Shown: positions 35,781 through 38,879 of the stretch, piece after piece
Numbering within the stretch: position 1 is the first letter of the stretch
Layout: each line of letters starts with the position of its first letter
Assembly (NCBI RefSeq): GCF_027571385.1
Contig: NZ_CP085636.1
Location: 6,117,001 to 6,181,000, forward strand
DNA length: 64,000 bases
DNA from: Shewanella sp. MTB7
GTDB lineage: Bacteria; Pseudomonadota; Gammaproteobacteria; Enterobacterales; Shewanellaceae
Direction of reading: 5' to 3'
The notes under the pieces: generated by a model
Seen by the model: the letters and a program-made list of their open reading frames with translations, nothing else
The model's database searches: none
What the model was told of the DNA's origin: nothing
Translations under genes and position numbers: made by a program

Positions 35781-36425
35781 TTAGCTATCTCTGGCTTCAG
35801 CCATCAGTAATCCTTTTTCCACCCAGAGCCTCACACTGATCCCCTTAACCTCGATAAACAAGGGTTGCTGACCTTTAGATAAGACGGGGAGTTTGCCATA
35901 TATCTTAGGATCATAACCAACTTCGTACAAAGTAACTTTCTTACCTGCTGATGTTTGAAACCGGATCTGTGCCGCTGTCACTCCCTGAATTGAACAGTAC
36001 CGCCCTCCCAACATGCGATTATTTTGTGGAGCCAAAAGTGCTGAGTTAACGATGGAAAAATCCAACTGCGTGAAGTAATGCTTCAGAGGTAAAATTGTTT
36101 CAGCTTTAAGTTCTAACGGCTTCATTTTAATATGGTTCATCGCCACTTCATTGGCAATCAAATCGATTTTTGTTGGCTGCGGCTGATAAAAATGCAAACT
36201 CACCATTAGCAACATCACCACACTGGCAGTCATCGCCATCAATACCCCGATTCTTCTGGGTTGCTTTGACTTTAATTCTTGTCGCTCAGGTTCGACGTGA
36301 TCAGTAATCCCTCCCAGCAGATGTTCAAACTTATTCAGTTGTTCATCATCGAGTTTCTGTAGCTCAATTAAAGATCTAGCCGCGGCTTTAAAAGAGGAGT
36401 TTGTTGGCTCATGTTTCCTATTCAT
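35781..36425 (-). CDS. Putative anti-sigma factor of the bufferin operon
   Basis: 214 residues with one membrane helix (about 60-78, IGVLMAMTASVVMLLMVSLHF). The N-terminal part is cytosolic and charged, the C-terminal part would be periplasmic and includes a single cysteine in GGRYCSIQG. It overlaps the ECF sigma gene by ATGA, the usual arrangement for a sigma/anti-sigma pair. I see no classic zinc-binding anti-sigma motif, so the assignment rests on topology and position. It may sense copper or another stress signal in the periplasm. Confidence 0.65.
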   Translation of the reverse strand: MNRKHEPTNSSFKAAARSLIELQKLDDEQLNKFEHLLGGITDHVEPERQELKSKQPRRIGVLMAMTASVVMLLMVSLHFYQPQPTKIDLIANEVAMNHIKMKPLELKAETILPLKHYFTQLDFSIVNSALLAPQNNRMLGGRYCSIQGVTAAQIRFQTSAGKKVTLYEVGYDPKIYGKLPVLSKGQQPLFIEVKGISVRLWVEKGLLMAEARDS

Positions 36426-36907
36426 AATCTACCACCGAAACTCCTATTCCGTTTAGTCTCAGATACATCTGCGACTTTCTGCTTAATGCGATGTAATCGT
36501 GACAATATAGTTCCTCTGGGTTGCATCAACTCCGAAGAGATCTCTGATGCGGTATAACCATCGACAGCCCATAAGTAGAGGACTTCGCGTTCAGCTGTAT
36601 TTAAGAGAGCAAACACATACTCAATCAAATTATGTTGTATCTCCAACTCCTCAACACTGGTTTCATCTAGCAAGATAGGCGCCCCATCCTCGATAGACTC
36701 AAAGGCAATAATTTGATTTCGACGACAATCATCAACAAATTGGTTGCGGATAATTTTACGAATATAAGCATTGGAATACTCAGCTGCTTTATCGCGGCGG
36801 AGCCATTTTTCCAATGACGTTTGCAGTAGATCTTCCGCATTTCGATGCTCAGAGGTGAGACAGTAACAGTAACGAAACAATCCCTGTAACAGTTCTCGAG
36901 TCAGCAT
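36422..36907 (-). CDS. ECF sigma-70 family sigma factor
   Basis: 161 residues with sigma region 2 (HRNAEDLLQTSLEKWLRR, YIRKIIRNQFVDDCRR) and region 4 (LLNTAEREVLYLWAVDGYTA, SEISSELMQPRGTILSRLHR) and no other domain. AAGG lies before the ATG. It overlaps the last bases of bufC and the first of the putative anti-sigma gene. This coupling makes it the likely activator of the bufA promoter, as ECF factors commonly control such DUF2282 operons. Confidence 0.9.
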   Translation of the reverse strand: MLTRELLQGLFRYCYCLTSEHRNAEDLLQTSLEKWLRRDKAAEYSNAYIRKIIRNQFVDDCRRNQIIAFESIEDGAPILLDETSVEELEIQHNLIEYVFALLNTAEREVLYLWAVDGYTASEISSELMQPRGTILSRLHRIKQKVADVSETKRNRSFGGRL

Positions 36908-37668
36908 TGTAGACCTTCACAATGAAAACCACATACCCACCCTTTACTAATAGCCCAGTTCAATGCTGCCATATCGGATCCTGACTCACTTATCTGATCT
37001 AAAGTGCGTGACAAGGTTATATCGACAAGTATCTGATACAGCTCAGGAGCAATGCGCTGAACCTTAGGTTTAAATGGATCTCGATAGACGCAAAAATGAT
37101 AGATTTCAACTGGGTCGGAAATATCCACAGCCTCTTTACCCTCTTGATATTTTATCCATAACTCATAAAGAGGATAGCTGGAGCTAAGCAGTTTGATGTC
37201 AGGACGTAATAACATCACAGCATCAGCCTGCTGATCCTCACAAAGAAACTCAAGCTGCGAAAAAGGGGAGCACACCAGTCCATCACCTGCGTAATAACTC
37301 AGTTGCAGTAGCCACTCAAGTTGCGCAAGATCAGCAAGATAGTTAACCCCCTCAAACTCTGAATGTGTCGTGATAATCTCGGCGATCAAAAGAGGAAATG
37401 ACTCACCGTATTGATTCAGATCACTCACTTTCAAGGGATAGTGTTGTTGATAATTTTGGGCTAGCTGCTCGAAACAAGTTTCACCCAAAATAGACTCGCT
37501 AATAGGAAAAGTCGCTCTCATAGCTGCCATTAAAGCTTGCTTACTGTTATTACGATATACAGATAAACGGTTTATCTCTCTCGCGTTAACCATAGCAAGC
37601 AATTGCTTATCATGCCCTTCTTCCCTAAGTGCATTGACAAAAGCATCTTGCCACTCAGCTAAACGCAT
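36901..37668 (-). CDS. bufC: BufC-type DUF2063 protein
   Basis: 255 residues. The N-terminal half is the DUF2063 putative DNA-binding-like domain (LAEWQDAFVNALRE, SVYRNNSKQALMAAMRATFP). In bufferin systems this protein partners the MNIO enzyme, probably presenting the precursor peptide. ATG 37668 is chosen because GGGA lies five bases upstream; a GTG just before it is an alternative. It overlaps the end of bufB by 14 bp, indicating translational coupling. Confidence 0.85.
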   Translation of the reverse strand: MRLAEWQDAFVNALREEGHDKQLLAMVNAREINRLSVYRNNSKQALMAAMRATFPISESILGETCFEQLAQNYQQHYPLKVSDLNQYGESFPLLIAEIITTHSEFEGVNYLADLAQLEWLLQLSYYAGDGLVCSPFSQLEFLCEDQQADAVMLLRPDIKLLSSSYPLYELWIKYQEGKEAVDISDPVEIYHFCVYRDPFKPKVQRIAPELYQILVDITLSRTLDQISESGSDMAALNWAISKGWVCGFHCEGLQC

Positions 37669-38527
37669 CACTTTCCCTTAAGAGATCAGAACCAGAGACC
37701 ACCTCTTGCGCTGCCTGCAAAATATCGGCAGCGATAGTTCTCTCTTGACGTAAACGTTGCAGTGAAGGTAGATCGCTATCCCACTCAATCATGCTGGGGA
37801 TTGGTCCATTCTTAACCACAAAATGAGTAAAAGCTTGCCACACTTCTTTATCAACCGGGTGATTATGGGCATCGAGTAGAAAGTCGCCCTTATCATGAAA
37901 GCCAGCTAAATGTATCTGCTTAACTCGATCAACTGGAATCGCATCGATAAACGCCTGCATATCCTGATTAAGGTTATTCGCCGTAACGTAGGCATTATTA
38001 ATATCCAGTAATAGATAACAGTCTGCTTGCTCGGCAACGGCGGCGATAAACTCCCCCTCAGTCATTTCATTAAATTGGCAACTTAGATAGGTAGACACGT
38101 TTTCCAGCAGAATTCTTTCACCCATAAAGTCCTGCACCTGGATGATACGTTGGCTTAAATGGCTCACAGCCTCTTGGGTATAAGGCATAGGCAATAGATC
38201 TGGTACCTTCAACGTGGCATTACCAGAGAAGCTGGCATGCTCTGAATACCAAAGAGCGCCAGTCTCCTTTTTCAACCTCTGAATTTGTTTAAGGTAGTCC
38301 AGATCCAATGCAGGTTGGCCGCCTAATGAAAGTCCGACACTATGGAGAACGATGGGATAACGCTCGCTTATCGCAAGCAGCATCTTCTTATTCAGCCCCC
38401 CGTTAACTAGCCAGTTATCCACTAGGACTTCAAACCAGGGAATATCGATCTCACCTGCAGCTAAGATCTCCTGCACATGAGGCAGACGCAAGCCAATGCC
38501 TGCGCCCGCTAAACTCGCTACTGACAT
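37655..38527 (-). CDS. bufB: BufB-type MNIO (DUF692) enzyme
   Basis: 290 residues, DUF692 TIM barrel. Multinuclear non-heme iron oxidative enzymes of this family oxidise cysteine residues of precursor peptides. Family metal-ligand motifs are in place: LHSVGLSLGG (H62), YSEHASF (H97), LLENVSTY (E142, N144), LLDINNAYV (D175, N178), HLAGFHD (H206, H211), DAHNHPV (D219, H221) and IEWDSDLP (E248, D250). It starts at the bufA stop codon (TAATG). Substrate is inferred to be the adjacent BufA. Confidence 0.9.
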   Translation of the reverse strand: MSVASLAGAGIGLRLPHVQEILAAGEIDIPWFEVLVDNWLVNGGLNKKMLLAISERYPIVLHSVGLSLGGQPALDLDYLKQIQRLKKETGALWYSEHASFSGNATLKVPDLLPMPYTQEAVSHLSQRIIQVQDFMGERILLENVSTYLSCQFNEMTEGEFIAAVAEQADCYLLLDINNAYVTANNLNQDMQAFIDAIPVDRVKQIHLAGFHDKGDFLLDAHNHPVDKEVWQAFTHFVVKNGPIPSMIEWDSDLPSLQRLRQERTIAADILQAAQEVVSGSDLLRESDAFS

Positions 38528-38811
38528 TATGATTTCGCTGGCTTAACAGCTTTGACTTCCCCATCAGTGATCTTGTCACAAGTACCCGCAGGCACATAGA
38601 CCCATTCATTAGGTAGGTTGTTCTCCTTAGCTTGACCAGCACAACCATGGCTAGCATCCAATGCACCACAGTCGTTGGATCCAGCTTTCGCGATACCCGC
38701 ACATTTTTCCCACTGAGTTGGCTGATCAGGTACCGCATTAGCCCCCACGGATAAGCCTGCTGCCAAAATTCCCGCAACGGTCAAACCCAATGTTTTATTT
38801 AATGATGTCAT
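38527..38811 (-). CDS. bufA: Bufferin-type precursor (DUF2282)
   Basis: 94 residues from ATG 38811; longer upstream starts have no signal and include other sequence. A Sec signal peptide ends at GANA (residue 26), so the mature product is periplasmic. Four cysteines (37, 48, 57, 78) lie in EKCAGIAKAGSNDCGAL, SHGCAGQ and PAGTCDKI, the DUF2282 pattern. In characterised homologues (bufferins) BufB and BufC modify core cysteines and the product binds copper. The DUF2282-DUF692-DUF2063 order here is the same. Confidence 0.9.
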   Translation of the reverse strand: MTSLNKTLGLTVAGILAAGLSVGANAVPDQPTQWEKCAGIAKAGSNDCGALDASHGCAGQAKENNLPNEWVYVPAGTCDKITDGEVKAVKPAKS

Positions 38812-38832
38812 CTCGTTTAATCCTTTATAAAA

Positions 38833-38879
38833 AGTGAAGTGTTCACTCCTATAACGAATTACACAGAAGTTTGATTGCA
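38833..38879 (-). promoter_or_regulatory. Candidate bufA promoter and inverted repeat
   Basis: On the minus strand TGCAATC (38873-38879) and CGTTATA (38850-38856) are separated by 16 bp, an ECF-like layout. Between the -10 and the ATG lies AGTGAA-GTG-TTCACT (38833-38847), a perfect 6-bp inverted repeat that could be an operator. Both are by eye only. Confidence 0.3.

Follow-up and report, generated by a model that had tools for sequence, protein, structure and literature searches.

How is a bufferin operon switched on, and does the switch respond to copper or to something broader? The question is raised by the window, the 64,000-nt stretch of Shewanella sp. MTB7 analyzed here (contig NZ_CP085636.1, positions 6,117,001 to 6,181,000, forward strand), on whose minus strand five overlapping genes and the promoter block ahead of them extend from 38878 to 35781: bufA, bufB, and bufC, followed by the genes for an extracytoplasmic function (ECF) sigma factor and for a one-helix protein of 214 amino acids (aa), probably its anti-sigma factor. 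We consider it probable that the whole forms a self-contained, copper-buffering operon of the Buf1 type under an autoregulated ECF switch.

Operon structure and recurrence

An earlier note on this DNA had described five genes in this order, with junctions overlapping by 1, 14, 7, and 4 bp, as a bufferin-type operon that includes an ECF sigma gene and the gene for a one-helix anti-sigma factor. All of the open reading frames were found in place on the minus strand, and the frames, their Pfam matches, and a structure model of the last gene product agree with a Buf1 operon that has an ECF factor and a one-helix partner of its own; the end coordinate that the note had given, 38879, happens to include the promoter block. 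In order of transcription, bufA (38527-38811) encodes a 94-aa Buf1 (DUF2282) precursor with cysteines at positions 37, 48, 57, and 78 and a Sec-type signal peptide (assigned by eye); bufB (37655-38527) encodes an MNIO maturase of 290 aa with conserved His, Glu, and Asp motifs; bufC (36901-37668) encodes a DUF2063 partner protein of 255 aa counted from the ATG, a length as in PME-type 1; the ECF gene (36422-36907) encodes 161 aa with regions 2 and 4; and the probable anti-sigma gene (35781-36425) encodes the 214-aa, one-helix protein. The predicted ECF promoter lies ahead of bufA, at 38850-38878 on the same strand (-35 element GCAATC(AA), 16-nt spacer, -10 element CGTTAT(A)).

Gene order and tight junctions are repeated in all 13 loci of a set drawn from the window's genus (12 genomes, its own among them) and from another family (one genome), adjacent genes either overlapping or standing no more than 7 bp apart; exact overlaps in the relatives are only approximate because a script took, as each start codon, the possible start nearest the end of the previous gene. 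Given this recurrence, the arrangement is not due to chance. Between bufA and the gltS-type gene upstream, a minus-strand hairpin with a T run (38890-38935; -12.2 kcal/mol, z -5.0) is a probable gltS terminator, missed by a consensus terminator scan whose permitted loop length is shorter. It precedes the promoter, and bufA therefore probably starts a transcription unit of its own.

Pairing and spread of the ECF and anti-sigma genes

A two-pattern scan of a genome contig collection, one pattern being GGRYCSIQ, yielded 98 loci, 80 of which were kept. The ECF gene adjoins the anti-sigma gene in 78 of the 80, and the complete order bufA-bufB-bufC-ECF-anti-sigma is present in 50. In another 27, an ECF gene is present but the same strand lacks the full set (some of these loci are cut by contig ends, and L150 has a divergent bufABC), and the remaining three comprise L191, which has an ECF gene, L176, which is cut by a contig end, and L169, where no ECF gene was seen. 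L169 shares a contig of Halochromatium glycolicum with L170: two anti-sigma relatives lie about 20 kb apart there, one with the full operon and the other with no ECF gene found.

Within the window's genus, 36 genomes (its own included) were compared: 12 encode DUF2282, and precisely these 12 also encode a protein closely related to the 214-aa one. In the rest of the order, represented by 24 genomes, 10 have DUF2282, and one of the 10 (G054) also has a relative of the 214-aa protein; the other nine carry bufA, bufB, and bufC with no ECF gene detected by a profile built from this ECF group. By record label, the 50 bufferin loci are gamma- and betaproteobacterial or similar, and pairs away from bufferin genes are found also in Deltaproteobacteria, Bdellovibrionales, Thermoanaerobaculia, and Latescibacterota (again by record label, many of these being metagenome bins).

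A promoter block that accompanies the pair

Alignment of the 13 upstream regions revealed one block in all 13, consisting of GCAATCAA, 14 or 15 free bases, and CGTTATAG or a close variant. In the wider set, GCAATC-N16/17-CGTY stands upstream of bufA in 49 of the 50 complete loci (44 exact with CGT[CT], five with one -35 mismatch), the sole exception being L171, where the block is missing. The spacer from GCAATC to CGT measures 16 nt in 44 loci and 17 nt in five, and 21 of the 44 exact-block loci lie outside the Shewanella entries. Control regions (reversed or on the opposite strand) contain the block once in 100, and Buf1 loci that lack the ECF/anti-sigma pair never contain it (0/9).

The window's own genome (6.37 Mb) has a single exact match, located at the window's bufA; a backward control also gives one. 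We found no enrichment that would point to a larger regulon in this genome (84 sites versus 96 in the backward control, at up to three mismatches and fixed spacing). Across 60 genomes, a loose pattern matches 61 times, 11 of them at bufA and 50 elsewhere, the latter exceeding the 30 matches of the backward control. Part of this excess is explained by a near-identical, pattern-fitting string, GCAATCACTTC...CGT(T/C)TTA, present in nine genomes (e.g., G021:C5:66273-66302): in the seven loci examined it lies inside an opposite-strand open frame 358 to 378 codons long and thus looks like one conserved gene. Further promoter targets may exist in relatives. The self-regulation that the earlier note had proposed gains strong sequence support from the conserved block ahead of bufA, its sole exact match in the genome, and its absence from the pair-less Buf1 loci, and control of the operon by its own ECF factor is well supported on these grounds.

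The bufferin genes

Matches to Pfam are unequivocal for all three products: 79.6 bits for BufA against DUF2282 (cut-off, 22.4), 314.8 bits for BufB against the MNIO family PF05114 (cut-off, 25), and 65.4 bits for BufC against DUF2063 (cut-off, 27.2). With a four-cysteine DUF2282 precursor bearing a signal peptide, a PF05114 maturase, and a DUF2063 partner, the bufferin part is, by its sequence features, an ordinary Buf1 set. The four cysteines are conserved in an alignment of BufA from 42 of the 50 wider loci and from the nine Buf1 loci without the pair, and BufA of relatives is 63 to 91% identical to that of the window. It represents a subtype of the form AVPDQPxxWEKCAG...NDCGALDGSHxCAGQA, in which AVPDQPxxWEKCAG stands at the mature start. 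Among Buf1 members, modification affects the two central cysteines and a disulfide links the outer two (PMC12452194, in excerpt), and it is expected by homology that the two central cysteines of the window's BufA carry copper-binding thiooxazoles.

The His, Glu, and Asp motifs of BufB, which make up the metal site, are common to its relatives and to two paralogues of the same genome (compared across 11 of the 50 wider loci and the nine pair-less Buf1 loci). The catalytic residue of FonB is Asp249 (PMC13097082, in excerpt), and Asp250 in the E-W/R-D motif of BufB appears to match it, FonB itself being outside the alignment. In a BufB tree, the window's protein groups with those of pair-bearing loci, apart from the nine pair-less Buf1 loci, with modest support (81/89); L188 and the divergent L150, both with the pair, fall outside that group. 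The nearest named relatives there, Shewanella hanedai among them, agree with the placement of the window's genome in Shewanella.

Further MNIO and BufC arrangements were noted alongside. In the window's own genome, one additional MNIO gene (G000:C1:1323152-1323931) lies beside a precursor (L001) that is Cys-rich, lipoprotein-like, and perhaps of the Buf2 kind, and another (G000:C1:3838580-3839362) beside an EGKCG-repeat precursor (L002), both types being assigned by eye. At L130:4632-5474, where the rest of the gene set is complete, BufC is split over two neighboring open stretches and looks disrupted; at L172:939-2492, one uninterrupted open frame holds the matches to both BufB and BufC, which may be naturally fused.

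The sigma factor and its candidate antagonist

The ECF factor matches Sigma70_r2 at 26.8 bits (cut-off, 24) and Sigma70_r4_2 at 26.1 bits (cut-off, 25.7). CorE-like copper ECF factors have a Cys-rich C-terminal extension (PMC10141476, in excerpt); in the window's factor, cysteines occur only at positions 14, 16, and 61 of 161, and a CorE-like identity was rejected.

The earlier note had proposed that the 214-residue protein be searched for anti-sigma domains; the search returned no named domain of this kind and a distant relative, DUF3379 (PF11859). The protein itself scores 31.5 bits against DUF3379, under the curated cut-off of 33.2, and DUF3379 is matched at an E value of 0.01 by 16 of 83 aligned relatives (the window's protein plus 82 of 120 listed, from 708 found by a word-based search). 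Profile-profile comparison of the family with DUF3379 (hhalign) gives a probability of 91.7% and an E value of 7.6e-7, and canonical DUF3379 proteins share with it a YCxxQG motif and an alignable helix and domain.

The structure model of the 214-aa protein (predicted local distance difference test score, 87) consists of two short N-terminal helices (residues 12-37), one membrane helix (57-79), and an alpha/beta domain (86-214). Basic residues ahead of the membrane helix suggest a cytoplasmic N-terminus, which would place the short helices in the cytoplasm and the alpha/beta domain outside it. Residues H98, R142, Y143, and C144 are invariant in all 83 aligned proteins, C144 being the sole cysteine of the window's protein. 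An ECF gene as partner, one membrane helix, and a presumably cytoplasmic N-terminus are features of a membrane anti-sigma factor, and from the near-constant ECF pairing and this topology the 214-aa protein is probably one. One homologue (P0051) carries the putative name "Anti-sigma factor" in UniRef.

Structurally, the extracytoplasmic domain is matched best by RseB and MucB, which in turn each work with an anti-sigma factor (RseA/RseB and MucA/MucB), at Z scores of up to 7.1 that may reflect a common arrangement only; kinship with RseB (RseB/MucB C-terminal domain, PF17188) is unsupported by sequence-profile comparison. Foldseek with the model gave no match at an E value of 0.001 or better, and a sequence search of solved structures with the 214-aa protein gave one chance match only.

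Other cargo behind the same promoter

In 18 of the 30 loci without the full set on that strand, the exact block lies ahead of the ECF gene on the same strand (L150, L151, L161, L164, L174, L177, L178, L181, L182, L184 to L187, L190, L192, L194, L195, and L198). Its cargo is varied (named with Pfam for L174, L194, and L191 and by eye for the other loci): L174 and L195 combine DsbD-like with TlpA-like genes, L194 has a DoxX gene, and L161 and L164 have incomplete bufferin sets. L186 has the block immediately ahead of its ECF gene, and L150 has two blocks that point in opposite directions. Eleven listed loci, nine of them with the exact block, contain a gene for a secreted-looking protein (130 to 162 aa) marked by the motif KKGDYYVSCADF, which reads KKGDFYVSCADF or RKGDFFVSCADF in some; this protein is encoded at L181:4534-4947 and in ten further loci before the same ECF/anti-sigma pair, and the two scanned examples (from L181 and L185) matched nothing in NCBIfam and nothing in Pfam above the cut-off. 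In L191 and L197, the gene preceding the pair is thioredoxin-like and that strand has no block.

Such variety implies that the promoter is tied more closely to the ECF/anti-sigma pair than to bufA. The bufferin-operon setting described by the earlier note is borne out; beyond what that note could see, the pair belongs to a wider cassette that also accompanies nonbufferin genes.

Proposed mechanism and alternatives

In the resting state, the 214-aa protein would hold the ECF factor at the inner membrane. Excess periplasmic copper, or a linked thiol-oxidizing stress, would act on the extracytoplasmic domain of that protein, with the conserved H98 and C144 or their vicinity as the probable site, and so release the ECF factor. 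The sequence evidence has it driving the GCAATC-N16-CGTTAT promoter ahead of bufA, the predicted products being BufA, the maturase BufB with its partner BufC, more ECF factor, and lastly more anti-sigma factor: a positive autoregulation in which the last-made product would serve as a brake. BufA would be exported and, with its two central cysteines modified to thiooxazoles as expected from homologues, would bind copper. Copper is our inferred signal, and an ECF-controlled set of DUF2282-DUF692-DUF2063 genes has a precedent in Caulobacter (PMC3511200, in excerpt).

Several points weigh against this scheme. It is drawn from sequence, namely from layout, promoter block, pairing, and conserved residues. 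The promoter pattern was derived from 13 loci, some of which are of the same species as those among the 50, and conservation of C144 across the 80 loci is partly by construction, since GGRYCSIQ was a retrieval pattern. BufB reaches 308 bits against the NCBIfam model MNIO_BufB, 2 below the cut-off of 310. A single cysteine argues against a simple intramolecular thiol switch, and the Caulobacter sigma-F system responds to chromium and cadmium (PMC3511200, in excerpt), so that copper need not be the signal. The nonbufferin cargo of relatives would suit a more general signal of envelope or thiol stress. A switch that senses envelope thiol or oxidative stress (e.g., hypochlorite, peroxide, or misfolded disulfide proteins) and copper only indirectly, with bufferin as one of several thiol-protective outputs, is the most serious competitor, although we regard it as rather unlikely. 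It could draw on RpoE2 of Haemophilus influenzae, which responds to HOCl (hypochlorous acid) (PMC7907618, in excerpt). In the present loci it would account for the block before DsbD-like and TlpA-like genes or DoxX, the thioredoxin-like gene preceding the pair in L191 and L197, and the one invariant cysteine of the 214-aa family. DsbD-type and DoxX genes, however, can be copper-linked too. Moreover, 50 of the 80 retrieved pairs end a bufferin operon, and bufferins act in copper buffering (PMC12452194, in excerpt).

The remaining alternatives concern the regulator and the activity of the operon. Pfam and NCBIfam scans of the 214-aa protein returned no recognized anti-sigma domain, NrsF included, a further point against the proposed scheme; this and a cytoplasmic part of only about 56 residues would suit a co-activator or structural partner of the ECF factor in place of an inhibitor, which we judge improbable: a single helix, the final position in the operon, and the almost constant company of an ECF gene are typical of membrane anti-sigma factors, and the putative UniRef name of P0051 points the same way. 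An inactive operon, or an unmodified BufA, in this lineage is very improbable, given that open frames, MNIO motifs, and the four cysteines are kept in relatives, as is the promoter. Least credible is that we are dealing with an ordinary sigma-F/NrsF-type Buf1 cluster in which nothing about regulation differs: sigma factor genes and NrsF have been reported from Buf1 clusters (PMC12452194, in excerpt), but NrsF (PF06532) occurs in none of the 60 genomes, the window's own included, with Caulobacter as a positive control; the promoter is not GTAACC-N16-CGAA; and there is one membrane helix versus six in NrsF. The structure model shows no NrsF-like fold in the 214-aa protein, and this alternative stands refuted.

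Besides the autoregulated copper-buffering operon that we favor for the window, a more general proposal can be made, tentatively and short of being likely: that a widespread Cu- or thiol-sensing ECF/anti-sigma cassette exists, with GCAATC-N16-CGTY as its own promoter code, direct Cu(I) sensing by the invariant His and Cys in the extracytoplasmic domain of a one-helix anti-sigma factor, and bufferin sets, DsbD/TlpA sets, DoxX, or the uncharacterized secreted protein with the motif KKGDYYVSCADF as cargo.

Genomic neighborhood

Directly upstream of the operon are two tandem, closely similar gltS-type symporter genes (38948-40171 and 40498-41721, minus strand; named by eye); a second gltS-type copy was seen in one relative, L039, the fetched stretches being limited. 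Convergent with the operon, 35117-35659 (plus strand) encodes a lipoprotein-like protein with three similar DUF333 repeats, and a DUF333 match lies close to the operon in 8 of 12 fetched relatives. Genes resembling those for molybdenum cofactor and molybdate transport (32854-34909 and 46718-51847; named by eye) flank the region on both sides.

Comparison with known systems

ECF control of Buf1 genes is already known (PMC3511200 and PMC12452194, in excerpt); what differs in this locus is the class of its anti-sigma factor, its promoter code, its confinement to one operon, and the wider cassette, none of which turned up in the literature searched. No title or abstract was found that couples a DUF3379-like anti-sigma factor with bufferins, nor was "DUF3379" found in any paper searched, subscription papers being mostly outside the scope of both searches. 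Canonical DUF3379 genes stand in another genomic setting: the example at G000:C1:2345165-2345863 lies next to an ECF gene, as do its counterparts in 17 of 17 other same-genus loci, always directly after that gene. Its product scores 309 bits against the DUF3379 profile, versus 31.5 for the 214-aa protein, and the ECF factor beside it is 32% identical to that of the operon in the same genome. This constant position, together with the profile homology, suggests that DUF3379 is an anti-sigma family, and the present locus suggests such a role for its unstudied, DUF3379-like relatives.

As in other Buf1 clusters, some of which contain sigma factor genes, a DUF2282 precursor with a signal peptide and four cysteines is combined here with an MNIO maturase and a DUF2063 partner; what sets this one apart from the clusters described in the excerpts of PMC12452194 is the lack of DoxX among the five genes, a DUF3379-like and not NrsF-type anti-sigma factor, and a distinct BufA subtype. 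The Caulobacter sigma-F/NrsF system is alike in that an ECF factor and a membrane-bound negative regulator control DUF2282-DUF692-DUF2063 genes. In that system, the regulator spans the membrane with six segments and contains two conserved cysteines, the promoter reads GTAACC-N16-CGAA, and a sigF-nrsF unit is accompanied by further target units (PMC3511200, in excerpt), in contrast with one helix, one cysteine, GCAATC-N16-CGTTAT, and, judged by pattern matches, only one operon for the switch described here. The switching on of bufferins is described in the literature examined, part of it seen in excerpt, only for the sigma-F/NrsF type, to which the present locus would add a second, compact, and apparently single-promoter switch. 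Its precisely predicted promoter and two candidate sensing residues make the envelope-sensor question testable, and the promoter code can be used to find further members of such stress operons.

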